Positions 8,251 through 25,408 of a DNA stretch of 64,000 nt are shown piece after piece. Below the pieces are notes generated by a model. It was not told the origin of the DNA. It did not search any database and saw only the letters and a list, made by a program, of their open reading frames with translations. A program made the position numbers and the translations under genes. The stretch comes from Zobellia uliginosa (GTDB lineage: Bacteria; Bacteroidota; Bacteroidia; Flavobacteriales; Flavobacteriaceae). Position 1 is the stretch's first letter, and each line of letters starts with the position of its first letter. The DNA is taken from positions 614,275 through 678,274 of the forward strand of contig NZ_FTOB01000002.1 in NCBI RefSeq assembly GCF_900156625.1, in the 5' to 3' direction.

Positions 8251-9789
8251 TTATCGATTCTTTATACCATTTGTGAGACGTTTAATTAAATCTCGAAAAT
8301 ATCTGTCGCTCAAATATAAAATCCCACCGTATAAAACAATTGTAATTATTGTGACACAGAATGAGAAGAAAAGAAAATCATATATATTTTCCATTTTTGA
8401 CATTAAATAGTTTTTAGTAATATACCGAATGCCCAAGTACACTGGAGAAAATATGAGGAGAAGTTTTAAAAAGCCGAATATGTATTCATAGAAAGGCCAT
8501 TGAAAAGCCTTGGTAAAAAGAAAAAACGGTCGCCACAACATAATAATCAAAATAAGGCTACAGCTGGTTCCCAATAGTATGCCGGTTAGCCCGAATTTGG
8601 TCACCAAGAGCATTGAAACTGAGAGATTGATTATACTTTGGGCTATTGGGGCCCACGTGTCGGAATACAGTCCGTAGGCTTGTTTAAATACATCCACAGG
8701 TTGTCTGACCTGTAGCATAAAGAAGTTTATGGCAAATAAGGCTACAGTGGTTTCAGAAAGAATATATTTTTCACCCAGCCATAGTACAATAAAAGGGTCT
8801 ACAAGCGTGATAATCCCTATGCTGACTATCCCGGCTATAAAAAAGCGGAAGGACATTAATTCCCAAAACACCTGTTTGATGGAGCTTTCATTTTTTTCAG
8901 CCACCAAATTTCCTACACTGGCATTGGTCCCTGAAAAGAATTTGTTCAGCAGGGTGGCAAAGTTGAGAATGATCAATTGGTAGTTGCCAAAGAAAGCTAC
9001 GGTCTCGACATTGATAAAGGAGAATATTAAAATATTGTCCGTGCCGTTGGAGACAAAAGTCCCCAATTTATGTAGGCTGATCTGTTTTATTTTTTTTATG
9101 AGTTCGGGGTACGATTTAAAATCCTTGCTTTTTTGCCCGTTGTTGAGAGATAATGATAACCAAGGGTACTGTTTGGTCGTTTTTTTACGTAAGGATATGG
9201 TAAACAAGATGGAACTCAACAGTTCGAGGGTCACCCAGGCAATAAAGCTTTGAAAATAGAATACAAGGATGATCTGTATAATAATTTTTGTTATGTTGTA
9301 GCTTTGAAGGTACTTGGCTACCATGTATTCTTTTTGATCGGCCTGAAACAAAAGCATATGGTAGTTAAAAAAATACCCCAATAAGGAACTCGCTAAAAAG
9401 GTGGAAAAAGCATAGTAGATAAGAGGTAGGGAGATATCTACATCTTCAAATATGAGCGGAAAGAAGGCGGAAAGTATCAATGCCAAACCAATGATTGCCC
9501 ATCCGATTTTTTTATAGATATTGCCAAAAAATCGGATGATGTGGTTGATTTCTTGGTGGTTTTTATCAAAAATAGGCTTATAGAGGGTATAGCCAATAGC
9601 AGTTCCTATTCCCAGTTCGGCCAGATTTAAGAAGCTTAGGAAGCTTTGAAGGGTAGAGGTAAGGCCCATAAAGTCATCCCCGAGGTTTTCAAGGAAAATT
9701 TTTCGGGCAAAGAATTGGGTAAAAATAAAAATGACATGAAAAAAAACGCTAACCTTCGCGTTTTGAATAGTATTCTTGAGTCTAGACAT
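8251..9789 (-). CDS. wzx: Oligosaccharide flippase (Wzx-like)
   Basis: A 512-residue integral membrane protein with roughly a dozen to fourteen hydrophobic segments and no catalytic motif. Its size and start (FFARKIFLENLGDDFMGLTS, then FLSFLNLAELGIGTAIGYTL) match polysaccharide-biosynthesis flippases of the MATE/MOP superfamily. Its role would be to move undecaprenyl-pyrophosphate-linked repeat units to the periplasmic face, where the Wzy-type polymerase of this locus works. The start ATG shares one base with the stop codon of the upstream GT2 gene (TAATG arrangement at 9787-9791), a sign of translational coupling. The presence of wzx, wzy, wza and wzc shows that the locus uses the Wzx/Wzy-dependent route. 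Confidence 0.9.
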   Translation of the reverse strand: MSRLKNTIQNAKVSVFFHVIFIFTQFFARKIFLENLGDDFMGLTSTLQSFLSFLNLAELGIGTAIGYTLYKPIFDKNHQEINHIIRFFGNIYKKIGWAIIGLALILSAFFPLIFEDVDISLPLIYYAFSTFLASSLLGYFFNYHMLLFQADQKEYMVAKYLQSYNITKIIIQIILVFYFQSFIAWVTLELLSSILFTISLRKKTTKQYPWLSLSLNNGQKSKDFKSYPELIKKIKQISLHKLGTFVSNGTDNILIFSFINVETVAFFGNYQLIILNFATLLNKFFSGTNASVGNLVAEKNESSIKQVFWELMSFRFFIAGIVSIGIITLVDPFIVLWLGEKYILSETTVALFAINFFMLQVRQPVDVFKQAYGLYSDTWAPIAQSIINLSVSMLLVTKFGLTGILLGTSCSLILIIMLWRPFFLFTKAFQWPFYEYIFGFLKLLLIFSPVYLGIRYITKNYLMSKMENIYDFLFFSFCVTIITIVLYGGILYLSDRYFRDLIKRLTNGIKNR

Positions 9790-10802
9790 TATCGTTTCAA
9801 CAGCATTAACCGTATTTTAATTCGCAGAGCAACTAGTTTGAGTATCATACCATAGAACCAAAAAGGAGAGTATTTCGCTAATAAGGCATAGAAAGAATTA
9901 TTTTCATATTTTAATTCTAATTGATCAATAATTTCTGATTTTATTTCTTTCCTATAAGTGTAATCTGGGTCTAAGTAACTGTGGGAAAACAAGCGGTCAT
10001 AGTGACTTAAAAGTGTCCTGATGAGGTATTGACTAGCCAAGGTCCGCACATTTAGGTTGTGATGCTGTGTACGTTCAAAAACATAATAAGGGGCATCCTT
10101 GGCCGCTAATTTTTTCATGTTATAGGGACTTCTCGTGATGCTTTCATTTTCTGTGTTGTAAATATAAAAGGGTTCTGCTATATATCCCTGTTTTTCTACC
10201 CTATTTAAGACATCTATAGTGAAAAATACATCTTGATGAATTTTACCAGGTATAAATCTTAAATCACCGATCACTTCACTTTTGTAAATTCGTCTCCAAA
10301 CCGACCAGTTTTTTTCTCGAATCAAACGTTCAACGGCTTCTTCTTGTGTTTCGATAAAACATTTATGATTGTAGGGGGATAGCTCTTTAGCTTTATTCGA
10401 TTGGGTCAAACCACACTCGACAACGCTTAGGTTGTTGGTCAATGCATAAGATATCATCGTTTGGAACATTTCTGTTTTTACGTAATCGTCGCTATCTATG
10501 AATGCAATGTAATCGCCAGAGGCTTTATTCAAGCCTGTATTTCGTGCGACACTGGAACCAGCATTTGTTTGTTGTATAATTATTATCCTGTGGTCTCGGC
10601 TTTTGTATAATTTACAAATGTCCCAACTGTTATCTGTTGATCCATCATCTACTAGTATAACCTCTAGGTTGGAATAGTTTTGTTTCAGTATACTCTGAAT
10701 ACAACGTTCCAAATAGGCTTCTACGTTGTAGACAGGAATTATAACAGAAAGTAAAGGTGGGTGTTTGTTTGATAGTGCCTTAGAGTCCTTACTTTGTGAC
10801 AT
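9789..10802 (-). CDS. GT2 glycosyltransferase
   Basis: A 337-residue family 2 glycosyltransferase with the classic order of motifs: LLSVIIPVYNVEAYLERCIQ at the N-terminus, LEVILVDDGSTDNS, ARNTGLNKASGDYIAFIDSDD (DxD site near residue 105), and a basic, partly hydrophobic C-terminus. A 12-residue polar leader precedes the GT-A core. It shares one base with the flippase gene downstream and is preceded by 154 AT-rich bases separating it from the PL1-like lipoprotein gene. Donor and acceptor are not predictable. It most likely works at the cytoplasmic membrane on the same lipid-linked intermediate as the other transferases here. Confidence 0.9.
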   Translation of the reverse strand: MSQSKDSKALSNKHPPLLSVIIPVYNVEAYLERCIQSILKQNYSNLEVILVDDGSTDNSWDICKLYKSRDHRIIIIQQTNAGSSVARNTGLNKASGDYIAFIDSDDYVKTEMFQTMISYALTNNLSVVECGLTQSNKAKELSPYNHKCFIETQEEAVERLIREKNWSVWRRIYKSEVIGDLRFIPGKIHQDVFFTIDVLNRVEKQGYIAEPFYIYNTENESITRSPYNMKKLAAKDAPYYVFERTQHHNLNVRTLASQYLIRTLLSHYDRLFSHSYLDPDYTYRKEIKSEIIDQLELKYENNSFYALLAKYSPFWFYGMILKLVALRIKIRLMLLKR

Positions 10803-10956: not shown

Positions 10957-12765
10957 TTACTTGTTATCCCCCGCTAAAAAGTGTAAAAACTCATCAAGGT
11001 TAGTGTATCCGTCCCCATCGTGGTCCCCATTATTGTCTTTTTTTCCTATGGTTCCCCCAATGTTAACTTCCCACTCATCTTCTATTCCATCATGGTCTGT
11101 GTCAGTGTATGTCTCTTTATTTGTTGTTATCGACGGATATGCCCCTGATTTATTTGGCGAACCTGTTCTGTTATAAAAGTAGTTAATCAATTCTTTGTCG
11201 AGTTCATCTCGAGACAGGCTGGCTCCTACATGAGGTAAGAGGTTGTCTTCGATTGTAGATCCAGAAGCGCTTATTGGAGTATAATCACTTTTGCTTACAG
11301 GGTTAGTAAGTAAAATGTTTTTCAGGTCTTTATGGACTTCATTTTGACTTGAAGGGGTGTTATTTCCGGAAACAAATACCCTTGAATCACTAAGTAGTGT
11401 ATTAGGGTGGTCGGGGTTCCCGTTATGATCAGTTCCGTTGCCAGGATCGTGAGGTATTATTCCAACAACGGAGCTTACACCGCTATTGTCATAGGTATTA
11501 GATAAGACATATTTGTTGTTTATAACGTTGAAAGCCTGACCATATTCTCCGGTTGTTGCGTATTTATATCCATACACTAAATTATTAATCATCTCGAAAG
11601 TGATTTCTTTGTTCCCTTCAGGGTACTCAGTTTCATTTGAGAGTATGTTTCTCGAGGAATTTAGCGCAAAATAATTATTTAAAACAGATATTCTTTGTCC
11701 TTTTTGAACTAAGAAAGTTCTGCTACTTTCAGCAATGATACAATTTTGGACGGTAACATCTTTAGCTAATTTAACATCTAGGTTTTGGTCGGGGCCCCAT
11801 GCTACTGAGCAATGATCAATTATAATATTTTTTATTGGGGTATTATTACTAGAGCGAATTCTTATGCAATTTGCATTATCGGCATTCACACTCTTAGTAT
11901 TGTTATAATCCGTGCCAGACATTTGTCTAAATTTAAGGTGTCTTACTATAACATTGCTCGCTTTTATCCACAACTGTCGTTTTTTGATTTGAAAACCTCC
12001 TTTTGGAGCTGTTTCTCCTGCAATGGTCAAATTACCTCCATTGGAAGGGACATATAGATTAGAAGTGGGTTCGAGCACTCCCGCGATTTTGAAAATAATA
12101 GTTCTAGGTACGCTCATCTCCAATGCATTTCTAAAACTTCCAGGTCCTGAGTCATTTAAGTTGGTGACTTCCACAACGATGCCTCCACGACCTCCTGTCG
12201 CATTTTTTCCATACCCTTCTGCAGTAGGAAAGGCTTTTAGTTCGTCAAAATCATTGGATACAATTACCGAAGCTTCTCCAGTTTCTTTTTTTCCGTCTTC
12301 TTGTTCGATTTCGGTGGTATAAGTGAACGAGTCTTTTGATTTTTCTTCGGTATCTTCAGAAGGTTCTTCTTCTTCTTCTTCTTCTTCTTCTTCTTCTTCA
12401 GTCTCAGCTGTAGTTTCTTGGGGGGTGTTGGTCTCCGGTTTTTCGTTTACGCCATCGGGAACATAAGTAAGGGTGTTGTCGTCGTTGATAATAACCGACC
12501 CATTTTTAGGTTGCGAGGTTTCTACGATTTTTACTTTTTCAGGATTTTCCAATATGTCGTTTGACAACACATCTAAGACTATGGCTTCTTTTCCATTGAT
12601 TACGTAGGAGTCGTTTATTAGAATGTTCCCGGTTAAACGGGCCTGTTCTGCGTCGGAGATAACATACTCAGCGAGTAAATCGGTGTCTTTGCTGCATGAA
12701 ATACTTAAAAATAGTGCAAGTAATAGCATGGTCAAATTAATGACTTTTAGTTTTATTATTTTCAT
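10957..12765 (-). CDS. PL1-like pectate lyase-family lipoprotein with poly-Glu insertion and Ca-binding C-terminus
   Basis: A 602-residue predicted lipoprotein: hydrophobic signal then Cys24 followed by SKDTDLL. Residues about 45-170 form one cadherin/Ig-like repeat (VLSND, then PKNGSVIINDDNTLTYVPD) interrupted by an acidic insertion containing about 12 Glu, after which the domain resumes with DSFTYTTEIEQ. Residues about 175-530 are a right-handed beta-helix of the polysaccharide lyase 1 kind (AFPTAEGYGKNATGGRGG, then VEVTNLNDSGPGSFRNAL and IIDHCSVAWGPDQNLD). The C-terminus has thrombospondin-3-like Asp repeats (DTDHDGIEDEW). Where typical pectate lyases have SRNPR, this protein has SRNIL, so activity on unmodified pectate is uncertain. 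It sits inside the polymer-synthesis locus, so the cell's own uronate polymer is a likely ligand or substrate. Confidence 0.83.
   Translation of the reverse strand: MKIIKLKVINLTMLLLALFLSISCSKDTDLLAEYVISDAEQARLTGNILINDSYVINGKEAIVLDVLSNDILENPEKVKIVETSQPKNGSVIINDDNTLTYVPDGVNEKPETNTPQETTAETEEEEEEEEEEEEPSEDTEEKSKDSFTYTTEIEQEDGKKETGEASVIVSNDFDELKAFPTAEGYGKNATGGRGGIVVEVTNLNDSGPGSFRNALEMSVPRTIIFKIAGVLEPTSNLYVPSNGGNLTIAGETAPKGGFQIKKRQLWIKASNVIVRHLKFRQMSGTDYNNTKSVNADNANCIRIRSSNNTPIKNIIIDHCSVAWGPDQNLDVKLAKDVTVQNCIIAESSRTFLVQKGQRISVLNNYFALNSSRNILSNETEYPEGNKEITFEMINNLVYGYKYATTGEYGQAFNVINNKYVLSNTYDNSGVSSVVGIIPHDPGNGTDHNGNPDHPNTLLSDSRVFVSGNNTPSSQNEVHKDLKNILLTNPVSKSDYTPISASGSTIEDNLLPHVGASLSRDELDKELINYFYNRTGSPNKSGAYPSITTNKETYTDTDHDGIEDEWEVNIGGTIGKKDNNGDHDGDGYTNLDEFLHFLAGDNK
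12364..12399 (-). repeat. In-frame triplet microsatellite encoding poly-Glu
   Basis: About twelve TTC units on the + strand (GAA in the coding sense) encode the run of glutamates in the PL1-like lipoprotein. Because the unit is three bases, length changes keep the frame and only alter the linker length. Confidence 0.9.
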
Positions 12766-12944
12766 AAGTAGGTGTTAAGATTTGGGATTTGGGGACCCTT
12801 TTCTTATAATTAGTTGAATTACATAAATTAATTTTCTTTGTCTAGAGATTTACAATAGTTATCCGTTGACAAAAATATTAACCTGTAAAGCTAAATATTG
12901 TTGTTGAACGATCATTTTAATAGATGAAATGCACTGTATCTTTT

Positions 12945-12960
12945 TATAAAATCGATGAAC
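12945..12960. promoter_or_regulatory. TATAAAA-TCGATGAA box upstream of PL1-like gene 1
   Basis: In the otherwise featureless 338 bp of AT-rich DNA between the PL1-like gene and the terminator at 13104, the box TATAAAATCGATGAAC occurs with its TCGATGAA core at 12952-12959, 187 bp upstream of the start codon. The paralogous gene at 17097-19160 has almost the same box 181 bp upstream of its start. The shared sequence at a shared distance suggests a regulator site or conserved promoter part. No protein can be named. Confidence 0.4.
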
Positions 12961-13103
12961 GGTACAATTTTCGTATAAAATGAATTTTTTTAACAAAAAG
13001 AGTGGAGTAATCTGTTTGGGGAGGTAGGCTGCTTGTTTGCTTTTATTTAATTGTAAATTGTTGGCTGGTAGTATTTTGTGAAAAATAAATCGAGTGAAAA
13101 ATA

Positions 13104-13157
13104 ATAAGGTCCAACAAAAAAGCCCGACATATGCCGGGCTTTTTTGTTGGACCTTAT
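13104..13157 (-). terminator. Rho-independent terminator with perfect 23-bp arms
   Basis: A perfect inverted repeat: arms 13104-13126 and 13135-13157 around an 8-base loop, with GC core AGCCCG/CGGGCT flanked by A6/T6 tracts. It lies 33 bp beyond the stop of the TviB-like dehydrogenase gene. The symmetric A and T tracts allow it to act in both directions. Confidence 0.9.
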
Positions 13158-13189
13158 ACAGATTTGTAATAAAGGAACTAAAATTAAGT

Positions 13190-14470
13190 TTAAAGTCTAC
13201 CGTCTACCTTACCTTTTAAGATGCCCTTTACATCGTATAGTACGCCGTTTTCATTTAAAAGGGCTCGTAGGTCAATATTTAAAAACTCATTATGGGCAAC
13301 GGCAAGAACAATGGTGTCGTACTTTTCGTTGGGGACTTGGTTTACTATTTGTAGACCATATTCTTCTTCAACTTCTTCCTTGGAGGCCCATGGGTCGAAG
13401 ATACTGATATTGGCCCCGTAGCTCTTAAGGTTGGTAATTACGTCTACCGCCTTTGTGTTTCGTACATCGGGACAATTTTCCTTAAAGGTAATACCTAAAA
13501 CGAGCATTTTGGCTCCTTTTATTTTTATCTCCCGTTGAACCATTAATTTGACAACTTCTGAGGCTACATATTTCCCCATTCCATCATTCATACGCCTTCC
13601 GGCTAAGATGATTTCGGGGTGATAACCGAACTCTTGTGCTTTTTGGGCAAGATAATAGGGGTCGACACCAATACAATGGCCACCGACTAGTCCGGGTTTG
13701 AAGGGCAAGAAGTTCCATTTGGTCCCCGCTGCCTCAAGTACGGCACTCGTGTCAATATCCATTAAGTTGAAGATTTTGGCCAATTCGTTTACAAAGGCGA
13801 TATTGATATCCCTTTGAGAGTTTTCGATTACCTTGGCGGCCTCTGCTACCTTTATGGAAGGGGCCAGGTGGGTTCCGGCAGTGATTACCGAAGCATATAG
13901 GGCGTTGACTTTTTTTCCGGTTTCCGGAGTAGAGCCCGAAGTAACCTTTAAAATCTTTTCTACGGTATGCTCCTTGTCACCCGGATTGATACGTTCAGGG
14001 GAATAGCCAACAAAAAAATCTTTGTTAAAGACGAGTCCGCTCACTTTTTCCAATACAGGGATACACTCTTCTTCCGTTACGCCAGGGTATACCGTAGATT
14101 CATAGACTACGGTGTCTCCTTTTTTCAACACTTTCCCAACCGTTTCGCTTGATTTGTACAAAGGCGTTAGAACAGGTCTGTTGGTGTGGTCCACAGGGGT
14201 GGGAACGGTTACGATGTAATAGTTACAATCGGAAATTGCCTCCATTTGGTTTGTACAATGTAGCCCGGTTTCCATTTGAGGGGTATCGCGCAACACCTTT
14301 TGCAAAATATCGTCTTCTACCTCTAAGGTACTGTCCGTTCCGGATTGCAATTCTTTAATCCGTTCCTCGTTGATGTCAAATCCGATTACCGGATATTTTG
14401 TAGCAAATAATCGCGCAAGAGGTAGGCCTACATAACCCAATCCTATTATTGCTATTTTAATATTTTTCAT
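13190..14470 (-). CDS. tviB: UDP-N-acetylhexosamine 6-dehydrogenase (TviB/WbpO-like)
   Basis: A 426-residue nucleotide-sugar dehydrogenase. The NAD-binding loop [21 protein letters not shown] is at the N-terminus, the middle domain has [17 protein letters not shown], and the active-site cysteine lies in [13 protein letters not shown]. The C-terminal UDP-binding domain shows [19 protein letters not shown]. These features fit the TviB/WbpO subgroup that oxidises UDP-GlcNAc or UDP-GalNAc to the uronic acid, rather than the UDP-glucose group. The TviC/WbpP-like epimerase gene lies 6 bp upstream, the pairing known from Vi antigen and P. aeruginosa O6 O-antigen synthesis. The pair probably makes UDP-GlcNAcA/GalNAcA. 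A strong terminator follows the gene. Confidence 0.9.
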
Positions 14471-14476
14471 TCTTGT

Positions 14477-15475
14477 TTATTTTAAATTGTTCCAATACCA
14501 ACTAACGGCATTTTTGAGTCCGGTTTTTATATCGAATTGAGGCGCATAGCCTAGTAATTTTTCAGCCTTTTCTATAGACGCCAAAGAGTGGGGGACATCT
14601 CCCTTTCTTTCTGGGCCGTAAGTAATGTCGATATTTGCAATTTGCGGATCAAATTCGCTTAAATAGCTTTTTAGCAAGCTTACAAGTTCGTTCAAATCGG
14701 TACGTTCGCCAAAGGCTACATTGTATACGGTGTTAACGGCTTCTTTGTCTTTTGCCAACAAAGCCCTTATGTTCATTTGAACGACATTGTCGATATAAGT
14801 GAAATCTCGGGAAAAACTACCGTCACCATTTATAACTGGCGACTCATGGGCCATAAGTTGCATGGTGAATTTTGGAATTACGGCCGCATAGGCCCCATTG
14901 GGATCTTGCCTTTGCCCGAAAACATTAAAATATCGTAGCCCTATAGTTTCCAGTCCGTATGTAGAACTGAAAATGTTGGCATATAATTCATTTACATATT
15001 TGGTAATGGCGTAAGGCGAAAGGGGTTTTCCTATAATGTCCTCTACTTTGGGCATTGATTTTGAATCCCCGTAGGTGGAAGAACTGGCAGCGTACACAAA
15101 ACGTTTCACGTTCGCATCCCGGGCCGCAACGAGCATATTCAGGAATCCGGAAACATTTACATCGTTGCTGGTTATAGGGTCATTTATAGATCGGGGAACG
15201 GACCCCAATGCCGCTTGGTGCAATATAAAGTCCACATCCGTACAAGCTTTATGACAAGTGGATAAATCCCTAATATCTCCTTCAATAAGGGTAAAGTTGG
15301 GGTTGGAAGTAAAGGGGAGGATATTTTCCCGTTTGCCTGTTGCAAAGTTGTCAAGGCAAACGACACGGTTTCCGTTGTCTAATAGCGCTTCACATAGATT
15401 GGAGCCGATAAAGCCGGCACCGCCAGTGACTAGTATTTTATGGTCAAGGGAAAGCTCTAAATCTTTTATGGACAT
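14477..15475 (-). CDS. tviC: UDP-GlcNAc(A) 4-epimerase (TviC/WbpP-like)
   Basis: A 332-residue extended short-chain dehydrogenase/reductase. The NAD loop ILVTGGAGFIGSNLCEALL, a SSSTYGDS serine region and the catalytic YAITK (Y-x3-K) are present, with RYFNVFGQRQDPNGAYAAVIP and the substrate-side RDFTYIDNVV. The pattern, including the short polar leader before the NAD loop, matches WbpP/TviC-type epimerases that interconvert UDP-GlcNAc(A) and UDP-GalNAc(A). The ATG at 15473-15475 is preferred; a TTG three codons upstream (15484) would add only MKI. The TviB-like dehydrogenase starts 6 bp downstream, so the two act together. Upstream are 232 AT-rich bases without a gene. Confidence 0.88.
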   Translation of the reverse strand: MSIKDLELSLDHKILVTGGAGFIGSNLCEALLDNGNRVVCLDNFATGKRENILPFTSNPNFTLIEGDIRDLSTCHKACTDVDFILHQAALGSVPRSINDPITSNDVNVSGFLNMLVAARDANVKRFVYAASSSTYGDSKSMPKVEDIIGKPLSPYAITKYVNELYANIFSSTYGLETIGLRYFNVFGQRQDPNGAYAAVIPKFTMQLMAHESPVINGDGSFSRDFTYIDNVVQMNIRALLAKDKEAVNTVYNVAFGERTDLNELVSLLKSYLSEFDPQIANIDITYGPERKGDVPHSLASIEKAEKLLGYAPQFDIKTGLKNAVSWYWNNLK

Positions 15476-15716
15476 GATTTTCAATCAAATTAATTAGTGG
15501 TCATTTATATAAATAGGAGGCAAAGTAAACAAAATGATTAGAGAATTACCGTATTATTGGGAAGATCGTCAAAATTATCCGTTGTAGGACATTACGACCG
15601 AACTCTTGAATGAAATTTATACTTGTTGTCTGTTCTGCTTTAAAAAGAAATCCTAGTTTCTTTCTTTTTAACAGAGTCAATTTTTGCTAATAAACCCATT
15701 TGAATCTTACATCCGG

Positions 15717-16826
15717 CTAATTTGGATGATCAGTACTCAATACATCATCTATTTGTTTAAGAGCGATATCCGATATTTTGTGTTGTTTATGGCTGGTATC
15801 GGAATAAAAAAGAAATTTGCCACTTTCGAATGCCCTTACTTTTTCTGAAACAAAATCCACATACTTTTTATAATCATCACCTTCAAAACAGCATGAGTCG
15901 TATTTGTTGAGTATTTGGAACTGGTATCGGTTTTTCCCGGTTGCCCCCATAATATACATGTCTAGATAGTTTACCTTTTGATAGAGGCCTACATGGGTCT
16001 GTTCAAAATCTCCATAATTTTTAGATGGTTTGGAATACCTGACAAACATCGGGTAGGTGCCGGCAACAGGAAAGCTATAGTTTATTCTAGGGTCAAGGGC
16101 GGCAGTTACTGTAGTAGTCCATCCGCCACCGCTTATGCCGATCATAGCGATTTCGTTATAATTCTGTTTTTTGGCATAATTGACCATAGTCACTACAGGG
16201 GCTATAAAGTATTGTAAGGGGGTATCAAGGTATTTTAGTTCTTCATGATTCTCTAAATGAATTTTCCCCAATTTTTTAACTTCAATTACGGGATGGTTGT
16301 TCTTACCCTTAAGAGGCATTGCTAGGGCATATATGGTAAAGCCTTTTTTAAGAAAGTATTGAATCGTGTTTTTTCCAAGGTTAAATCCTCCACTATGGCC
16401 TTGATGATAAATTATTAGTCGATTATTCGATGATTTTGGATGAAAAATATAACCGATAGATTTTAGCCCGTAATCTTGTTTTATTTCAAATTGATCAATG
16501 TTCTTAAGGTTCTCTAGCTGAGCGAAGTACTCATCCTGTACTTCAAAGATGGTATCGGGTATGGATGTAGGCAGGAATTCTGAGCCAAATATTTCATTTC
16601 TTAAAACATTTCTTAAGGAGTCTATATTCTTGGGTGTTACGGATAAAAGTTCCTCAAGGTCTTTTTTTGTATAAACAAAATTCTCTAAGGGGTTAGTGAT
16701 TTGTTCTTCCGATAAGTCTTGAAAGCTTTTGATTAGTTCATAAGGAAAGACCCTATACTTACCTATCATTATCCCATAGAACAGAGCTGCTGCAACAATG
16801 AATGCGAAGAATATTTTTTTTAACAT
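15717..16826 (-). CDS. Membrane-anchored alpha/beta hydrolase
   Basis: A 369-residue protein with one N-terminal hydrophobic segment (about residues 4-22) and an alpha/beta hydrolase domain. It shows the oxyanion region LIIYHQGHSGGF and the nucleophile elbow GISGGGW (GxSxG, serine near residue 231). A C-terminal His in SDTSHKQHK is a candidate for the catalytic triad. Most of the protein should face the periplasm. Its place between nucleotide-sugar genes and PL1-like lipoproteins suggests an esterase that removes acyl groups from the exopolysaccharide. This is inferred from location and fold only; a peptidase or other hydrolase cannot be excluded. Confidence 0.7.
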   Translation of the reverse strand: MLKKIFFAFIVAAALFYGIMIGKYRVFPYELIKSFQDLSEEQITNPLENFVYTKKDLEELLSVTPKNIDSLRNVLRNEIFGSEFLPTSIPDTIFEVQDEYFAQLENLKNIDQFEIKQDYGLKSIGYIFHPKSSNNRLIIYHQGHSGGFNLGKNTIQYFLKKGFTIYALAMPLKGKNNHPVIEVKKLGKIHLENHEELKYLDTPLQYFIAPVVTMVNYAKKQNYNEIAMIGISGGGWTTTVTAALDPRINYSFPVAGTYPMFVRYSKPSKNYGDFEQTHVGLYQKVNYLDMYIMGATGKNRYQFQILNKYDSCCFEGDDYKKYVDFVSEKVRAFESGKFLFYSDTSHKQHKISDIALKQIDDVLSTDHPN

Positions 16827-17028
16827 AGTTTACAATTGAACTTTTACTAACACCAACATGTATTTATTAGAAGCTTCTATAGATTGTTTTTCTTAATCGA
16901 ATGTAAGTTTACGTCGGTTTTTATTGCCAGGTTTGCGCAAATCTATACTAACTCGATTTAAAATAAAATATTTCCTATGAATTAAAACTATTTTTAATTA
17001 TTTAGTATTTAGTTTTATTTACACTTAT

Positions 17029-17079
17029 GAGTCTAAAAAAAATACCAAGGGCTATTCCCTTGGTATTTTTTTTAGACTC
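17029..17079 (-). terminator. Rho-independent terminator with perfect 23-bp arms
   Basis: A perfect inverted repeat with arms 17029-17051 and 17057-17079 and a 5-base loop (CTATT); the GC core is ACCAAGGG/CCCTTGGT flanked by A8/T8. It lies 17 bp after the stop codon of the second PL1-like gene and could also work in the opposite direction. The rest of the 16827-17028 gap shows nothing recognisable. Confidence 0.9.
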
Positions 17080-17096
17080 GGTCGGTATGTATTTAA

Positions 17097-19160
17097 TTAT
17101 TTATTGGCTAGATAATATAGAAAATCTTCTAAGTTGGTATAACCATCTTTATTTCGATCTTCATTACCATCTGCTTTATTGTTCGGGTTTAGACCATGGC
17201 TTTTTTCCCAATCATCAGAAATGCCGTCTTTATCACTGTCTTTGTATGCGGTTCCACTACTGATACTTGGGTATGAGCCATTACTTCTTAATGTTCCATT
17301 TGAATTTTTGAAATCGCTAATTAAACGACTATCCAAAGCGTCTCGCTTAGGGATACTTGCTCCAACATGAGACAATAATTTATTTTCAAGATTATTTACA
17401 TTTGTGGCTTTATATGAAGATTTATTTTTCGGAGATGAAAACAGGTATGGTTCAAGCTCTTTTCTGTATAAACCAGTAAAATTAGAATCAAATATATTGT
17501 CCTTTAAATAAGCATGAGTTGTTTTGATATTGCCTTTATCGTTGTTTTCTGGATCAGGCGGAGTCAAGGTGATAGGGTATTTGGTTGATGTGTCAAAGTT
17601 GTTAGGTAATTTATAAGAATTGCTAATAACATTAAAAGACATACCGTCAGTGCCTGAAGTGGCCCATTTAAAACCATAGACGATATTGTTAATCTGTTCG
17701 AAAGTTAAATCTGTATGGGTTACTGTGTTAGCTAAAACGTTCCTGCTGTTATTTAAGATAAATAAATTATTCAATATGGAGATGTTTTTTGATCTTGAGA
17801 TTAAAACACCTCTTATGCTTTCTCCAATAATGCAGTTTTGAATAGTTACGTTTTCAGCATTTTTGATGTCGAAATTTTCGTCTATAGCCCATGCGACGGA
17901 GCAGTGATCGATAATTACATCTTTGAGTTTGTTGTTTTGAAACGAACGGACTCTAATACCATCGAGATTATGGCCACCTTCTGGGTTTGTTCCGGGGCCC
18001 ATTCTAACCCGTATATGTCTAATAATAACATTGTCAGTTTGGACGGAAAGTTCGCCATTTTTAATAAGAATGCCGCCCCCAGGGGCTGTTTGACCCGCTA
18101 TTGTTACATTTCCTGAACCAGGTTTAATGTTTAAACTTGACTTGGCGTTAATGGTTCCTCCTACTTTAAAAACAATAGTCCTAGTTTGTTTCATTTCCAA
18201 GGCTGCCCGAAGACTTCCCGGTCCCGAATCGTTTAAGTTGGTGACTTCAACCACAATACCCCCACGGCCTCCGGTGGCATTTTTACCAAAACCTTCAGCT
18301 GTTGGAAAAGCCTTTAATTCACTAAAGGCCTTGGTTGTTACGGTCACATTGACCTCCTCGGTAACTACATTGCCCTCTTCATCGGTAGTTTCGGTCGTAT
18401 AAGTAAAAGAGTCATCAACTTCCTCTTGGGCCGCGGCTTCGGCGGCGGCTTTTTCTTGAGCTTCTTTTTCGGCTTGGGCCTTTGCTTCGGCTTCCGCTTT
18501 TTCTTGGGCTTCTCTTTCAGCCTGTGCTTGGGCTTCCGCTTCTGCTTTTTCTTGGGCTTCTCTTTCAGCCTGTGCTTGGGCTTCCGCCTCTGCTTTTTCT
18601 TGGGCCTCTCTTTCAGCCTGTGCTTGGGCTTCCGCCTCTGCTTTTTCTTGGGCCTCTCTTTCAGCCTGTGCTTGGGCCCCCGCTTCTGCTTTTTCTTGGG
18701 CCTCTCTTTCAGCCTGAGCTTGGGCTTCCGCTTTTTCTTGGGCCTCTTTTTCAGCTTCTAGTTCCGCTTGCTCCTGTATAGCTTGGGCTTCCTCTTTTTC
18801 ACGGGCCTTACGTTCGGCCTCGGCGGCTTCGGCCTCTTCCTGTGCCGATCTATCGCCTAGGACATAGGTAATGGTGTTATCGTCATTAATGACTACATAA
18901 CCATTTTTAGGCTCCGATACTCCGATGATCTTAACATTGTTGGGGTTGGAAAACCTATCATTGGAAAGTACGTCCATAGTAATACGTCCGTTTTCCCCAA
19001 CCTTATAAAAATCATTGACCCCAAGTGGGCTTTCATTGGTCGGGGCCGAAGCATCCAAATAGCTTTCAAGGAGTTCGGTGTCTTTGGAACAGGAAAAAAG
19101 AGTTAAGGTGGATAACAAGGAAAGGGCTATCCTTTTACTAGTGGGGTGGGAAAAATTCAT
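17097..19160 (-). CDS. PL1-like pectate lyase-family lipoprotein with Ala/Glu/Gln repeat insertion
   Basis: A 687-residue paralogue of the lipoprotein at 10957-12765. The signal peptide ends at Cys24, again followed by SKDTELL. One cadherin/Ig-like repeat (VLSND, then PKNGYVVINDDNTITYV) is split by about 140 residues of charged, probably helical 16-residue repeats (units such as AQAQAEREAQEKAEAE), after which it resumes with DSFTYTTETTD. The beta-helix domain (about residues 285-620) starts AFPTAEGFGKNATGGRGG and includes IIDHCSVAWAIDENFD. A thrombospondin-3-like tail (DSDKDGISDDW) ends the protein. SRNVL replaces the usual SRNPR, and WAID replaces WGPD, so catalysis needs testing. It is likely surface-anchored and binds or trims the polymer made by this locus. 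Confidence 0.83.
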   Translation of the reverse strand: MNFSHPTSKRIALSLLSTLTLFSCSKDTELLESYLDASAPTNESPLGVNDFYKVGENGRITMDVLSNDRFSNPNNVKIIGVSEPKNGYVVINDDNTITYVLGDRSAQEEAEAAEAERKAREKEEAQAIQEQAELEAEKEAQEKAEAQAQAEREAQEKAEAGAQAQAEREAQEKAEAEAQAQAEREAQEKAEAEAQAQAEREAQEKAEAEAQAQAEREAQEKAEAEAKAQAEKEAQEKAAAEAAAQEEVDDSFTYTTETTDEEGNVVTEEVNVTVTTKAFSELKAFPTAEGFGKNATGGRGGIVVEVTNLNDSGPGSLRAALEMKQTRTIVFKVGGTINAKSSLNIKPGSGNVTIAGQTAPGGGILIKNGELSVQTDNVIIRHIRVRMGPGTNPEGGHNLDGIRVRSFQNNKLKDVIIDHCSVAWAIDENFDIKNAENVTIQNCIIGESIRGVLISRSKNISILNNLFILNNSRNVLANTVTHTDLTFEQINNIVYGFKWATSGTDGMSFNVISNSYKLPNNFDTSTKYPITLTPPDPENNDKGNIKTTHAYLKDNIFDSNFTGLYRKELEPYLFSSPKNKSSYKATNVNNLENKLLSHVGASIPKRDALDSRLISDFKNSNGTLRSNGSYPSISSGTAYKDSDKDGISDDWEKSHGLNPNNKADGNEDRNKDGYTNLEDFLYYLANK
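18488..18745 (-). repeat. 48-bp coding minisatellite (about five units)
   Basis: Copies of a GCTTTTTCTTGGG core start at 18496, 18544, 18592, 18640 and 18688 (exactly 48 bp apart), with a further copy at 18730 (42 bp apart). The unit encodes 16 residues rich in Ala, Glu, Gln, Arg and Lys. Units are nearly identical, so recent tandem duplication is likely, and copy number may vary between strains. These are not CRISPR repeats: they are in frame, contiguous and have no spacers. Confidence 0.92.
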
Positions 19161-19613
19161 AAGTGTTCAGTTGAATAGGAAATATGATTTACCGATTTAA
19201 TTTTGGATCAATACGTTTTTATTGTCGACAAAAGAACAAAAAAAATCGATGAAATGTGTTAATAAATTGTATAGATTATGTTTTTCATCGAGGGTTATAC
19301 GGATTTTTAGTCCACTTTGGACGTTGAATGGTATAAAAAATCGATGAAATACGTTTTTTATTAACATTTCTTCTGTTTTTTGTTGTTGTATAAGTATGAA
19401 GAGGTAAATGAATTAAACGGACAAAGGCATTTTAGAGACCTCTTTTGATCAGGAGGGGAGTAAAAAGAAAGCCTTTGGTAGAAGTTTTATTTTGCAAACA
19501 ACGAAGGTTTACTTTTTATTTAGGAATTTAGCGTTTTCTAAGAGGGCTGTACCAATGTTGGGATACAAGGGTAATCTAAACCTTGTTTGCCCTAAATTAA
19601 TTATGTATACGGA
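19161..19613. promoter_or_regulatory. Divergent intergenic region with three TCGATGAA boxes
   Basis: These 453 bp between the minus-strand PL1-like gene and the plus-strand DUF2264 gene hold no credible ORF. The octamer TCGATGAA occurs at 19246-19253 and 19341-19348 and, inverted, at 19284-19291. The copy at 19341 is embedded in TATAAAAAATCGATGAAAT, close to the box upstream of the first PL1-like gene, and lies 181 bp from the PL1 start. The region may control both divergent genes. No canonical promoter could be fixed with confidence. Confidence 0.45.
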
Positions 19614-21107
19614 ATGCGAAAAATAAAACTAGTTTCAATACTTGTAATAGTATTTTTTTTAGGCCTGTGCCTTTATTATTGGAGGTTGCAACGCGTCAAA
19701 GTGGAGAATTGGGAAAATAAGATTTCCGCTTTTGAAAATGCAGCATCTTATGATAAAGAGGTGAGAACTGTCTTTCTGGATACACTTTCCTATGCACCAC
19801 GTGAACGATATAAAGAATTGTTTGAGTACTTTTTTAGGGGGTATCAGAAATACAAGTCTGAGAATGGGGCTTTGGTCTTTTATCCAGGAGAATTTAGTGG
19901 AGGTGGTCAAAGTATCAATGCTTTGGAAGGTTTTGCCCGATTCTTCCCCTTAGGGTGTTCATATGTGTTAAATACCCAAAATTCCCCTATGGAAATGGAA
20001 GGGGGATCGATTAATGTGGCCGAGCTATTGGGTAAGGCGGTTTTAAAAGGTTCTGACCCGAAATCGGAGGAATATTGGGGTTCGATTGAAAATCGAGATC
20101 AAAAAATGGTCGAAGCTGCGGATATTGCCTTAGGCTTGTGGATTTCCAAGGAATTTATCTGGGATACGTTTAATGAAGGTGAAAAGAAGCAAATTTATAC
20201 CTGGTTGATGCAGGTTAGAGGAAAAAAGCATGGGGACAACAATTGGAATCTATTCCCGGTGATGGTGGTAAAATCTTTAGAGGCTCTTGGAATGGCCGAA
20301 CCGAAAGATGTGGAGGTTACCCATAAAAAATTCGAGCGATATATAAAAAAAGACTATTTGGGTAAGGGGTGGTTTAAAGATGGGGAAGCTCCCCCTGATT
20401 ATTATAATGCCTGGGCCATACAGTATTGTTTGTTTTGGCTCAATCAAATGCACCCTGATTTCCATTCGGAATTTATTTGTAAGGCCAATGCGGATTTCTC
20501 CGAATTTTTTAAACATTTTTTTGGCCCTAAGGGTTTTCCTATGATGGGACGCAGTGTTTGTTATCGAATGGCGGTGCCCTCTCCAATAATTGCGTCCTCG
20601 TTGTTGAATCAAGAAGTGGTTTCTCCAGGAGAGGCATTACGGGCATTGGATTATACCTGGTCTTATTTTATTTCGAACGGAGCCCTGTCCGAAGGGAAGG
20701 TGACCCAAGGTTTTTATTCCGACGACGTGAGCATTCTTAACTTGTATTCCGGGGCGGGGAGCTGCTTATGGTCTTTACGGTCACTCGTTACTGCTTTTTA
20801 CGTGGATTCTAAAACAAACCTATTGGGGACAGAACCTCAGAAATTGCCTGTGGAAATTAAGGATTTTCAATTAAGGAACGATAGGATTGATTGGGTTATA
20901 AGTGGAGACCAAGAGACGGGGATAATTACCTTGGAGATTTTATCCAATCCCTTAGAGCCTGTTATAGAGCTCGAACCATATTCGAATTGGGATGCTTTTT
21001 TAGAGACCCTTTGGCAGTATCCACATAGGCCTAACAATAAAAAAGCGTTGTATGAAAATAGATTCTACACCAGTGAGAACAAGCTTTTTAGAAAATCGGG
21101 TAGGTGA
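19614..21107 (+). CDS. DUF2264-family protein with N-terminal membrane anchor
   Basis: A 497-residue protein with a single hydrophobic segment near residues 6-23 followed by a long soluble domain that matches the DUF2264 family as I recall it. Marks are GQSINALEGFARFFPL near residue 100, GDNNWNLFPVMVV, WFKDGEAPPDYYNAWAIQ and GPKGFPMMGRSVCYR. The Trp/Tyr-rich, helical layout suggests an (alpha/alpha)6 barrel like that of uronyl hydrolases, which suits a periplasmic glycosidase or lyase on uronate-containing glycans; the exact reaction is unknown. It is transcribed away from the second PL1-like gene from a shared upstream region. This fits a joint job in processing the cell's own polymer. A bidirectional terminator follows. 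Confidence 0.78.
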   Translation: MRKIKLVSILVIVFFLGLCLYYWRLQRVKVENWENKISAFENAASYDKEVRTVFLDTLSYAPRERYKELFEYFFRGYQKYKSENGALVFYPGEFSGGGQSINALEGFARFFPLGCSYVLNTQNSPMEMEGGSINVAELLGKAVLKGSDPKSEEYWGSIENRDQKMVEAADIALGLWISKEFIWDTFNEGEKKQIYTWLMQVRGKKHGDNNWNLFPVMVVKSLEALGMAEPKDVEVTHKKFERYIKKDYLGKGWFKDGEAPPDYYNAWAIQYCLFWLNQMHPDFHSEFICKANADFSEFFKHFFGPKGFPMMGRSVCYRMAVPSPIIASSLLNQEVVSPGEALRALDYTWSYFISNGALSEGKVTQGFYSDDVSILNLYSGAGSCLWSLRSLVTAFYVDSKTNLLGTEPQKLPVEIKDFQLRNDRIDWVISGDQETGIITLEILSNPLEPVIELEPYSNWDAFLETLWQYPHRPNNKKALYENRFYTSENKLFRKSGR

Positions 21108-21210: not shown

Positions 21211-22224
21211 TTATTTGTAATAAGTTTTATACCACTCCACAAATTTCCGAACACCATCAACTACGCTGGTATTGGGTTGGTAGTCGTAATCCCTGATCAG
21301 GTCGTTTACATCGGCCCAGGTACGTTCTACATCTCCCGGTTGCATGGGCATCAACTCTTTTGTGGCTTTTTGCCCCATACTGCTCTCGATGGCTTCTATA
21401 AAATCGGTTAATTTAACGGCATTATTATTGCCGATATTATAGATTTTGTACAAATCCCTATTGCGAACCGTTTTGGTAAGTACACGCACCACTCCTTCAA
21501 CAATATCGTCGACATAGGTAAAGTCCCGTTCCATCTTACCATGGTTGAATACCTGTATCGGATTGCCTTTTGCAATGGCATCGGTAAACAGGAACAGGGC
21601 CATGTCAGGACGTCCCCAAGGGCCATATACCGTAAAAAATCGAAGTCCAGTGGTTGCAAATCCGAACAAATGACTATAGGTGTGGGCCATAAGTTCGTTG
21701 CTCTTTTTGCTTGCGGCATACAGGCTTATCGGGTGGTCTACATTATCTGAAGTGGAAAAAGGTATTTTTTCGTTCAAACCATAGACACTGGAACTACTGG
21801 CGTACACCAAGTGTTCGACTTTATTGTGTCTGCAGCACTCTAATAAATTCAGGTAGCCCACAATATTACTGTCAATGTAGGTCTCTGGATTTTCAATGCT
21901 GTAACGGACACCAGCTTGCGCGGCCAAATTACAGACCCGATTCACTTTTTCTTCCTTAAAAAGCTCAGGGAGGGCGTCCCGGTCTTCCAGGTTCATTCGA
22001 ACAAATGAAAATTTGTCACCATAGATGGAACCGTAGCATTTTTTATGAAATGTTTTAGCATCGTTCCGTTCAATGCCCAATTGCTTAAGACGGTCGTATT
22101 TTAGGTTTACATCATAATAATCGTTGATGTTATCTAGGCCGACGACCTCAAAACCTTGGAGCAAGAGTTTTTCGCAGAGATGATATCCTATAAAACCGGC
22201 TGCACCGGTGACAAGAATCTTCAT
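21211..22224 (-). CDS. UDP-glucuronate 4-epimerase
   Basis: A 337-residue extended SDR enzyme. It starts [20 protein letters not shown] and has the [17 protein letters not shown] signature of UDP-glucuronate 4-epimerases (CapI/LpsL/GAE group). [20 protein letters not shown] and the catalytic YAASK follow, with [20 protein letters not shown] and [11 protein letters not shown] downstream. The expected reaction is UDP-GlcA to UDP-GalA. Its start codon overlaps the stop of the UDP-glucose dehydrogenase gene by 4 bp (ATGA), so the two consecutive steps UDP-Glc to UDP-GlcA to UDP-GalA are translationally coupled. UDP-GalA would give the polymer the residue that PL1-type lyases recognise. Confidence 0.92.
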
Positions 22225-23618
22225 GATTGTCCTATTTTGTAGTATTGGAAGCCTTTTTCTTCCATTTCTTCTTTTGATAATAGGCGACGGCCGTCGAAAA
22301 CAAAGGCAGGTTTTAGCATTTTTTCAAAAATCGTATCCCAAGAATAGGTCTTGAATTCGTCCCATTCGGTTAGAATGGCAATGGCATGCGCATCTTGAAC
22401 GGCTTCCATGGGGTCGTTTACTACCGTAAGAAGTTTTCGGTTCTCTTCGGGAGCCCTTGTGTCTAGGTAATCCAAATCGGCATAAATCCTATCGGCCGAA
22501 ACTTTTGGATCGTATACCACAATTTCCGCCTTTTCTTCAAGTAGGGCATCGGCTATGTTAATGGCAGCAGATTCCCTAGTATCATTGGTATCTTTTTTAA
22601 AGGCCCATCCAAAGAAAACAATTTTCTTGCCTGAAACCGTGTTGTACAAGGTTGAAATTATATTTTCAGCAAAACGTCTTTTTTGATAATCGTTCATGAT
22701 GATGACCTGTTCCCAATAATCGGCAACCTCATTAAGTCCGAAACTTCTTGATATATACACCAAATTTAAGATATCCTTTTGAAAGCAAGAGCCTCCAAAA
22801 CCAACAGAGGCATTTAGGAATTTAGGTCCAATTCTACTGTCGGTACCAATCGCTCTCGACACTTCCGCTACATTGGCGTCGGTACGCTCGCATAATGCGG
22901 AAATGGCATTGATGGAAGAAACCCTTTGTGCCAAAAATGCGTTGGCAACCAGTTTGGAGAGCTCGGAAGACCATACATTGGTCTGTAAAATTCGCTCTTT
23001 GGGGAGCCAATGTTCGTAAATGGAACTAAGGGTGTCTTTGGCTTCTTGTCCAGAAGGTGTTTCGTCACCGCCGATCAATACCCGGTCGGCATGGAGCAAA
23101 TCTTCTATAGCCGTACCTTCGGCCAAAAATTCAGGGTTGGATAGAATTTCGAATTTTACGCCATTCCCTGTGTTCTCCAAAATACTTTTGATCGCGCTAG
23201 CCGTTCGTACCGGTAATGTAGATTTTTCTACGACTATTTTATCGGTTTTGGCCACTTTGGCAATATTACGGGCACAGAGCTCTACAAATTTCAAATCTGC
23301 TGCCTGCCCTTTCCCTTTTCCATAGGTCTTTGTCGGAGTGTTTACCGATATGAAAATGATTTCGGCCTCATCTATGGCTTTGTCTACTTCAGTGGAGAAG
23401 AAAAGGTTCTTTCCCCTGGTTTTTTCAACTATTTCTTTTAGCCCTGGCTCGTAGACGGGTAAATTATCTAGGTCGGAATCGTTCCATTGATCGATTCTGG
23501 CTTGGTTAATGTCCACAACAGTTACCGTGATTTCAGGACACTGGCTGGCAATAACGGACATGGTTGGTCCACCTACATATCCTGCACCGATACAGCATAT
23601 TTTATTTACTTTTTTCAT
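22221..23618 (-). CDS. ugd: UDP-glucose 6-dehydrogenase (eukaryote-like type)
   Basis: A 465-residue dehydrogenase starting at the ATG for [20 protein letters not shown]. In-frame alternatives are an ATG at 23630 and a TTG at 23645, which would add 4 or 9 residues. [41 protein letters not shown] and the cysteine motif [16 protein letters not shown] place it with the longer animal/plant-like UDP-glucose dehydrogenases, which also occur in Bacteroidota. This separates it from the TviB-like enzyme of the same locus. Product UDP-GlcA feeds the coupled 4-epimerase and the divergently encoded UDP-glucuronate decarboxylase. The shared 5' region (23646-24012) has no gene. Confidence 0.92.
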
Positions 23619-23900
23619 GAATGGGTTCATTTTATTAGGTTGCAAAGATTACTAAATAACTCAAAACTACCTTGCATTTTTTCGGTTAAAAAGATTTAAT
23701 TCAAGATTATGTGTTAGAAATGGGGTTAATTTATCGATGTATTAATAATCATAAGGTAGAGTACCATCTATTTTTATAGGGCCTGTAATTGAAGCAAGCC
23801 GATACTTGTCCGAAATTATATACGAAGCATTTGTAGAATAAGACTATTTACCTTTTATCTTAAATATTTGAAGTTCATAGCATTTTGAGAAAAAAACGTC

Positions 23901-25008: not shown

Positions 25009-25033
25009 GAAAACCTTGGAAATGAACTTAGAG

Positions 25034-25068
25034 GAGCGATGGTTCGTATTGGCTTCGCTCTTTTTTTT
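25034..25068 (+). terminator. Probable rho-independent terminator
   Basis: GAGCGA (25034-25039) pairs with TCGCTC (25055-25060), directly followed by T8. The 15-base loop is long and the stem short, so it is weaker than the other terminators here, but its position 26 bp after the UDP-xylose synthase stop supports it. Confidence 0.6.
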
Positions 25069-25313
25069 GTTATAAGCGTTTGATTTTGATATTTTTATAA
25101 GGAGAATGCCTTGGGGTTTCCTATTTTTGGGAGGCGGTAGAGGTGAAAAAACACATCTATTTTTTAATTTATATCGTACATATGTGGCTCAAGGTTGATG
25201 TTGGAGTTTGGTGTAAGGTGTGATTAGCCGATTTTTTGAGGCGTACAACAAAATTAATGAAGGGTTCTAATGTTAAGGTTTAGTTTTGTTTTTGATAATC
25301 AGGAAAGTATTGC

Positions 25314-25345
25314 TTGGCAATATTGAGATTATATTTATATGTTTG
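25314..25345 (+). promoter_or_regulatory. Bacteroidota-type promoter for the aminotransferase-dehydratase-wza-wzc operon
   Basis: TTG (25314-25316), 21 bases, then TATGTTTG (25338-25345) is a full match to TAnnTTTG with canonical spacing. Transcription would start near 25352, leaving a leader of about 57 bases before the GTG at 25409. The rest of the 25069-25313 gap holds no visible gene or structure. Confidence 0.5.
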
Positions 25346-25408
25346 GCCGCCATTGATTTGATGATGTCGGCAACCCCCAAACCATAATGAACTAAAAACC
25401 AATTTCCG

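Follow-up and report, generated by a model that had tools for sequence, protein, structure and literature searches.

Two genes in the exopolysaccharide (EPS) locus of Zobellia uliginosa, here called PLa and PLb, probably encode modular outer-membrane lipoproteins whose PL1-type domains cleave the polymer made by that same locus at uronate residues, the catalytic domain being swapped with the polymer type. Both lie in a stretch of 64,000 nucleotides (the window, in which all coordinates are given) from a genome of 5.3 Mb in 27 contigs, and the EPS locus, which is of the Wzy type, spans approximately 0.4 to 31.7 kb of the window. The sequence family of the domains, their conserved arginine, their genomic context and phylogeny, the mosaic of conserved and divergent domains, the correlation with the Wzy polymerase and the branch shared with phages are observations, from which we infer the substrate, linkage, surface exposure and biological role of PLa and PLb. 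The two genes and their parts are as follows.

10957-12765, minus strand: PLa, lipoprotein of 602 aa with a PL1-type beta-helix catalytic domain (PDB matches, lipobox)
12235-12765, minus strand: PLa anchor, with signal peptide, lipobox Cys24-SKDT, Cadherin_4/Big_9-like domain and acidic linker
10957-12234, minus strand: PLa catalytic domain
11650-11652, minus strand: PLa codon of the conserved catalytic arginine, R372 (PfPL1 Arg220 column)
17097-19160, minus strand: PLb, lipoprotein of 687 aa with a PL1-type beta-helix catalytic domain (PDB matches, lipobox)
18312-19160, minus strand: PLb anchor, with lipobox Cys24-SKDT, Cadherin_4 domain and Glu/Ala-rich repeat linker
17097-18311, minus strand: PLb catalytic domain
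17742-17744, minus strand: PLb codon of the conserved catalytic arginine, R473

PLa and PLb are the only two matches of their kind in the genome. In both, the lipobox cysteine at residue 24 is followed by SKDT, then by a Cadherin_4/Big_9-like domain (above the Pfam cut-off in PLb, slightly below it in PLa), a long linker that is acidic or rich in Glu and Ala, and a C-terminal domain of approximately 400 residues; a C-terminal TSP3-like Pfam match is weak. The Glu/Ala-rich linker of PLb is encoded by a 48-base tandem repeat (18448-18733, 6 copies, 92% matches). No pectate-lyase family of Pfam matched either protein at E 0.1, and the PL1 assignment was made from matches to solved structures, from NCBIfam and from fold comparison. 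The best PDB match of the catalytic domain is PfPL1 of Pseudoalteromonas fuliginea (9buj; E 1.5e-26 for PLb, 7.3e-20 for PLa), followed by VexL of Achromobacter denitrificans (6fi2; E 3.2e-9 for PLb, 8.7e-7 for PLa). The NCBIfam model PelZ matches at E 3.7e-35 and 2.4e-27, both far under its 840-bit cut-off, and Foldseek with a low-confidence model of the PLb domain (mean pLDDT 57.6, residues 20 to 185 or so being mostly better) ranks 9buj, 6fi2 and 1pxz first.

Relatives of the catalytic domains were sought in a family sample of 199 genomes at a cut-off of E 1e-10, with at most 9 candidates scored per genome, so that per-genome counts are lower bounds. PL1-type matches were found in at least 47 of the genomes. 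Among the 91 matches listed, five were left out (G200:C441, G157:C21:493446, G189:C1:1010125, G130:C1:2802768 and G164:C37:29784), and the 86 stretches around the others, with the window, gave 77 regions, many of just 20 kb. Regions with three or more synthesis genes and no SusC/D or GH88 were classed as EPS, and those with SusC/D or GH88 and no synthesis gene as polysaccharide utilization (degradation) loci (PUL), neighbours being judged by phmmer with a limited bait set. By these definitions 36 regions are EPS, 27 are PUL, 14 are neither and none is mixed; of the 47 genomes, 29 have EPS-type regions, 17 have PUL-type regions (4 have both) and 5 have neither. All nine genomes sampled from the genus (9/9) carry a PL1-type gene inside an EPS locus, so the arrangement is not a chance feature of one genome. 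TviB was found in 22 of the 36 EPS regions, its absence from the non-EPS regions being partly by construction because TviB is itself a synthesis marker. At a dozen EPS loci (G036, G012, G021, G020, L091, L094, L116, L122, L130, L135, L138 and L139) the PL1 domain is N-terminal and a long C-terminal tail replaces the lipoprotein anchor (899-2301 aa; the G012 protein is cut by a contig end).

The catalytic domains separate by context. A tree was made of 97 domains (42 EPS rows, 41 PUL rows and 14 neither rows), with three weak rows of 27-40 bits excluded and PfPL1 not included. One side of it, with support of 98, holds 40 PUL rows, 9 neither rows and no EPS row; outside it fall all 42 EPS rows, 5 neither rows and one PUL row (L114), and the EPS/PUL split was matched by none of 500 label shuffles. 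The part of the tree outside the PUL side need not be a single clade. The EPS-locus homologues form separate lineages and are not strayed enzymes of pectin loci. The neighbourhood comparison that the earlier note on this DNA had proposed thus came out in favour of its idea: homologues of the PL1-like proteins are accompanied by EPS genes in 36 of 77 regions, phylogenetically apart from the degradation-locus homologues, and do not come mainly from pectin loci. One PL subclade, chosen after the tree was seen, is accompanied by two further sugar-synthesis genes, which we take to be an L-FucNAc set, in 6 of its 7 loci versus 0 of 29 others (Fisher p 3.6e-6).

Within the EPS rows the proposed catalytic arginine and a D-H motif are retained. 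Arg220 of PfPL1 has been proposed as the proton abstractor (PMC11229556, in the part of the article available), and its column is arginine in all 42 EPS rows including PLa and PLb, in all 41 PUL rows and in 6 of 6 phage rows; a single neither row (L115, of 14) has no arginine there. The D-H motif is similarly kept in EPS rows (Asp in 42/42, His in 41/42). PfPL1 has also a named second catalytic arginine, Arg235, but by count position 235 of the 9buj chain is not arginine, and the column of the nearby Arg223 is non-arginine in PLa and PLb.

The evidence for exchange of the catalytic domain comes from comparison with G006, the genome of a close relative. Between the window and G006 the conserved genes of the locus are nearly identical at the protein level (TviB 99%, TviC 98%, GalE-like 96%, Ugd 99%, SDR 100%, DegT 97%, CapD 99%, Wza 98%), as are the anchors of PLa (97%) and PLb (96%), whereas the catalytic domain is only 44% identical in PLa and 72% identical in PLb. 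Other genes of the locus also have lower identities: Wzy 70%, the glycosyltransferases (GTs) 46-76% (76% for the GT at 9789-10802), AsnB 76%, the putative Wzx flippase 88%, an alpha/beta hydrolase 83% and a DUF2264 protein 89%. A block of DNA shared with G006 at 91% runs from 12119, inside PLa and approximately 38 codons into the catalytic domain, via TviB and TviC to 16783; the remainder of the PLa catalytic domain has no blastn match to G006 at E 1e-10 except for a short overlap with the PLb gene. Only the anchor-side flank of the PLa domain is conserved, the other flank (the GT at 9789-10802) being part of the variable GT/Wzx/Wzy block. Between the PLb domain and the Wzy block lie TviB and TviC, conserved at 98-99%; the change in PLb is therefore not accounted for by linkage to that block. 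The reverse case is found in G018, in which a 75% identical PLb domain is carried on a different anchor (26%), this anchor being 52-57% identical to the N-terminus of a second EPS-locus lipoprotein of six congeners.

Catalytic-domain identity between loci follows that of the polymerase. These comparisons were possible for 22 of the 36 EPS regions, those with nameable Wzx and Wzy candidates (some named from hydrophobic segments only); rows are not independent, and the permutation tests leave some relatedness in. The catalytic domain correlates with Wzy (Spearman 0.67, permutation p 0.0005, 22 loci) and with a GT (0.70, p 0.0005, 21 loci), and the correlation with Wzy over all loci is little changed with PLa alone, with PLb alone or without the four loci that have two enzymes. 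Within eight congeners the catalytic domain still tracks Wzy (0.483, p 0.01), and when CapD is controlled for in seven of these (without G005, which has no CapD in its stretch) the correlation with Wzy is 0.654 (p 0.002) for the catalytic domain versus 0.017 (p 0.43) for the anchor.

The same pattern is repeated in an unrelated beta-helix family. The second EPS-locus lipoprotein, found in G001, G002, G004, G005, G007 and G008 (for example L053:11876-15706 and L051:1191-4475), has PKD repeats, and in the two proteins scanned with Pfam one has CBM96 and one has Beta_helix; its C-terminal part shares 23-27% identity with the PL1 domain, the level of unrelated proteins. Among these genomes identity is 71-94% over its N-terminal 230 residues, against 38-81% over its C-terminal 380. 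For five congeners the correlation of the C-terminal domain is 0.939 with Wzy (exact p 1/120) and 0.915 with a GT (p 0.025), versus -0.10 for the N-terminus with Wzy. In the EPS locus of G007 the PL1 gene has as neighbour another lipoprotein gene (L048:16814-18424), whose product combines an acidic linker with a carbohydrate esterase domain of the SASA type.

Phage proteins share the branch. A PHROGs phage family named pectate lyase matches both catalytic domains (E 2e-46 and 7.5e-36), and tblastn matches, all below 60% identity, occur in 36 phage records, of which 21 are Cellulophaga phages. In phi13:1 the PL1 domain ends a protein that is annotated as an SGNH hydrolase and is part of the structural virion, and in the five Cellulophaga phages examined the PL1 gene comes after annotated structural genes. 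Six of the 36 records (these five and Manatee phage) were taken into trees. The five Cellulophaga domains are nested in a set of 9 (support 100) whose other members are two neither rows and EPS-type rows of G005 and G140, and with a mixture model they group with EPS-type rows in a set of 7 (support 99); the sixth phage domain has a long branch at another position, likewise outside the PUL side. Forcing the five Cellulophaga domains together with PUL rows was rejected (p 0.0013) by an approximately unbiased test, for which the grouping was named after the first tree and which included 20 of the 40 PUL rows (every second one), without L114, the 14 neither rows and Manatee phage. After addition of 70 viral-contig domains, the rows that passed the filter from 78 loci, no viral row (0/76) falls on the PUL side, although 24 of the 70 have a PUL row as their closest labelled neighbour by path. 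Occurrence of this PL1 branch in phage virion proteins is expected if the branch cuts bacterial surface polysaccharides.

Taken together, these data suggest how the system might operate. Repeat units would be assembled, polymerised by the Wzy pathway and exported, after which the anchored PL1-type domains would cleave the chains by beta-elimination at a uronate, probably N-acetylgalactosaminuronic acid (GalNAcA) or galacturonic acid (GalA); the likely purpose would be setting of chain length, release or remodelling of the coat. Upon acquisition of a new polymer cassette, recombination near the conserved start of the catalytic domain would replace that domain, the anchor often being retained, and this replacement would keep enzyme and polymer matched. 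A more tentative extension, for which we would not claim an even chance, is that flavobacteria have a general EPS cassette system in which the depolymerase domain for the cell's own coat is swapped via a joint at the conserved domain start, and that phage virion depolymerases draw on the same domain pool. If this is true, the coat type of a marine flavobacterium would become easier to predict from its catalytic-domain sequence, and each such locus would point to an enzyme that cuts its coat and be a source of matched EPS-specific lyases. One could then test why bacteria retain enzymes that attack their own polymer, and the diversity of host coats would be linked to the depolymerases of the phages that infect Flavobacteriaceae.

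Several observations weigh against cleavage of the locus's own polymer by swapped domains. Wzx, the second marker of polymer type, does not correlate with the catalytic domain over all loci (r 0.03, p 0.32, 22 loci), and in the eight congeners the correlations with Wzx (0.286, p 0.06) and with GT2 (0.306, p 0.06) are marginal. In the five congeners the C-terminal domain of the second lipoprotein follows neither the PL1 domain (0.321, p 0.23) nor Wzx (0.358, p 0.22). Because the PLa domain directly adjoins the variable GT/Wzx/Wzy block, block exchange could explain its change, and the anchor is not always kept: G002 and G004 have CapD at 99% identity, the anchor at 43% and the catalytic domain at 39%. 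The PfPL1 R223 column, which is R or S in PUL rows, is variable in EPS rows. The SKDT of PLa and PLb matches only in part the export signal of Capnocytophaga surface lipoproteins, given as K-(D/E)2 or Q-A-(D/E)2 in the part of PMC5080379 available. Fourteen of the 36 EPS regions are without TviB in the stretch examined, and GalNAcA is therefore not necessarily the substrate throughout. Finally, L114, on the EPS-type branch, lies near a SusC gene, and a close relative of the PLb domain in G003 (685k; L043:10592-13759), with F5/8 type C domains and a type IX secretion system sorting tail, lies outside any EPS or degradation locus; thus, some relatives may act on foreign EPS.

Four other explanations were considered. 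An unlikely one is that the beta-helix domain is a surface tether or lectin that binds the cell's own polymer to the outer membrane with little or no cleavage; the lipobox, the match to polymer type and the loss of the R223 column in most EPS rows would suit such a protein, but catalytic residues should decay in a protein that only binds, and in the EPS rows the catalytic arginine and the Asp of the D-H motif are kept in 42/42 and the His in 41/42. AlgG, the alginate epimerase, has the same fold and the same first chemical step as the lyases, and PLa and PLb might similarly be polymer-level C5 epimerases that abstract H5 and re-protonate (GalNAcA to L-AltNAcA, or GalA to L-AltA). Position in a synthesis locus and a Foldseek match to AlgE6, an epimerase (rank 19, E 0.061), fit this; the best-matching solved relatives, however, are lyases, and phage virion relatives are easier to explain as depolymerases, so that epimerisation seems very unlikely. 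It is more improbable still that the domains differ merely through hitch-hiking on exchanged locus blocks, with no functional match to the polymer: the position of the PLa domain beside the variable block, with the break-point inside the gene, the non-independence of rows and the behaviour of Wzx over all loci would be accounted for, but not the intervening conserved TviB and TviC genes at PLb, the tracking of Wzy by PLb alone or the same pattern in an unrelated lipoprotein. Least probable of all is a nutritional enzyme for foreign pectin-like or bacterial polysaccharides that is located here by accident, a reading suggested by the best solved relative, PfPL1, being described as a pectin lyase of a degradation locus (PMC11229556, in the part available) and by members of the EPS-type branch outside EPS loci, and disfavoured by the lack of SusC/D or GH88 neighbours in positions 1-45000 of the window (phmmer with 6 SusD, 1 SusC and 4 GH88 baits), by the absence of regions with both kinds of marker (0/77), by the position of the EPS rows outside the PUL side of the tree, and by the EPS-locus gene in all nine genomes sampled from the genus. 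Cleavage of the locus's own polymer therefore remains the preferred reading of PLa and PLb.

Enzymes acting on the producer's own polymer are already known. The genes vexL and rbmB are located in the loci of their own polymers. VexL, a PL1 beta-helix enzyme of subfamily 13, is reported to act on an alpha-1,4-GalNAcA capsule (PMC11229556 and PMC7949094, in the parts available); it is the second-best solved match of the PLa and PLb domains by sequence and, for PLb, by fold, and TviB/TviC-like genes are present in the window locus. The earlier note had likened the locus to alginate operons with AlgL, for which VexL is a closer analogue, with the same fold and, judging by the TviB/TviC-like genes, perhaps the same sugar. 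VexL differs in being periplasmic and associated with ABC-transporter-dependent secretion (title of 6fi2), whereas PLa and PLb are two predicted lipoproteins with exchanged domains in a Wzy/Wzc locus. WceF of Pantoea stewartii, a tailspike-like beta-helix enzyme, is likewise encoded within a Wzy-dependent EPS cluster, is active on that EPS and has a phage link, but in the available part of its description (PMC7949094) it is a trimeric hydrolase with a tailspike-like fold rather than a PL1-type lipoprotein. RbmB of Vibrio cholerae, a weak fold match to the PLb domain (best row at rank 29, E 0.12 in Foldseek), is a lyase acting on the cell's own biofilm polysaccharide that differs in being described as secreted (PMC11637428, in the part available). 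PfPL1, of subfamily PL1_2, is the closest solved relative by both sequence and fold and keeps the Arg220 column; it works in a pectin-degradation locus, as the available part of PMC11229556 has it, and degradation-locus homologues occupy the other side of the tree. In Maribacter dokdonensis 62-1 a PL12 gene lies inside a flavobacterial EPS cluster, for which a link of synthesis and degradation was proposed (PMC8072126), but the PL family is another one, and the available part of that report gives the protein as without a predicted signal peptide and unique to strain 62-1. The earlier note, which knew of no described system with this gene set, needs correcting in that enzymes directed at the producer's own polysaccharide are on record. 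What is new is the modular anchor with an exchanged domain, its repetition in an unrelated beta-helix family and the branch common to phage virion proteins; among the open-licence papers listed for EPS-locus lyases of Flavobacteriaceae or Zobellia, none was found to describe EPS lyases with a kept anchor and an exchanged domain.

The other genes of the locus, with TviB, TviC and the precursor genes that bear on the substrate, are listed here.

4729-5775, minus strand: Wzy-type polymerase (Wzy_C, Pfam)
5782-6882, 7148-8053 and 9789-10802, minus strand: glycosyltransferases (Pfam), with the putative Wzx between them
8251-9789, minus strand: putative Wzx flippase (from length and 8 predicted hydrophobic segments only)
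13107-13154, minus strand: strong terminator-like hairpin between TviB and PLa (pattern match only)
13190-14470, minus strand: TviB-like UDP-GlcNAc 6-dehydrogenase, giving UDP-GlcNAcA (NCBIfam, Pfam)
14477-15484, minus strand: TviC-like 4-epimerase, presumably UDP-GlcNAcA to UDP-GalNAcA (NCBIfam, Pfam)
15717-16826, minus strand: alpha/beta hydrolase with an N-terminal hydrophobic anchor, perhaps an esterase (weak family matches)
19614-21107, plus strand: DUF2264 (ex-GH154) protein with an N-terminal hydrophobic anchor, probable uronate dehydratase
21211-22224, minus strand: GalE-like epimerase, probably UDP-GlcA to UDP-GalA (Pfam, NCBIfam)
22221-23645, minus strand: UDP-glucose 6-dehydrogenase (Ugd), a nucleotide-sugar dehydrogenase
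24013-31727, plus strand: SDR, DegT-type aminotransferase, CapD-like, Wza-like and Wzc-like genes, kept across the genus

The interleaving of two PL1-like lipoproteins, a DUF2264 protein and an alpha/beta hydrolase with polymer-synthesis genes, on which the earlier note had been based, is borne out. Pfam identifies Wzy_C, Poly_export/SLBB, Wzz/GNVR with AAA_31, Polysacc_synt_2 (CapD-like), four GT proteins and a TupA-like ATP-grasp protein in the locus, so that Wzy polymerase, Wza and Wzc of a Wzx/Wzy-dependent EPS locus are all present; the putative Wzx has no Pfam match, and a Pfam scan of 19 proteins of the window found no ABC transporter. The TviB-like and TviC-like genes match the NCBIfam models of those names best, yet both matches are under the cut-off (545.9 of 592 bits and 377.1 of 760 bits). 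UDP-GlcA is the probable substrate of the GalE-like epimerase because Ugd is its neighbour, and the hairpin between TviB and PLa suggests that PLa may form its own transcript.

The DUF2264 protein, the sole match of its family in the genome (Pfam E 1.7e-65), had been counted among the polymer-cleaving proteins, a role that it probably does not have. Proteins related to it (ex-GH154) are reported to be uronate dehydratases, which convert saturated chain ends to an unsaturated uronate (PMC12269599, in the part available), and all eight alignable residues of the ten named in the active site of one of them, BcGDH, are present (N, N, W, F, Y, R, Y, Y; by count, the numbering of the paper is 5 above that of the chain). 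E74 and R78 of BcGDH fall outside the alignment, and an E-x3-R motif (LEGFAR) is present in the DUF2264 protein. BcGDH serves chondroitin breakdown (PMC12269599), whereas the DUF2264 protein of the window lies in a synthesis locus and has a hydrophobic N-terminal anchor; judged by sequence it probably acts as a uronate dehydratase rather than cutting the polymer, and would make unsaturated uronate at saturated chain ends of the polymer. The family matches of the alpha/beta hydrolase are weak (PhoPQ_related, E 0.019; RcgR, E 1.3e-5, 24.5 bits versus a cut-off of 182), and a single-sequence model of it (mean pLDDT 34.3) is useless for function. Among the 36 EPS regions DUF2264 occurs in 4 and the alpha/beta hydrolase in 3, so both go with one polymer type, and the regions that have either one have similar Wzx (80-93%) and Wzy (68-74%). 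These two proteins are best seen as tailoring enzymes of that polymer type, the hydrolase possibly editing its substituents. The self-processing module that the earlier note had envisaged for the cell's own polymer is thus supported for the PL1-type proteins, with their EPS-locus homologues, separate phylogeny and tracking of Wzy, but probably not for DUF2264 as a depolymerase nor, beyond a single polymer type, for DUF2264 and the hydrolase as members.

Two further features of the window were noted. A GH88-family protein is encoded at 58825-60048, approximately 38 kb from DUF2264; the genome contains four GH88 matches, this one included. An open reading frame of 2057 aa (32051-38224) follows Wzc, and parts of it match downstream open reading frames in the EPS loci of some relatives.

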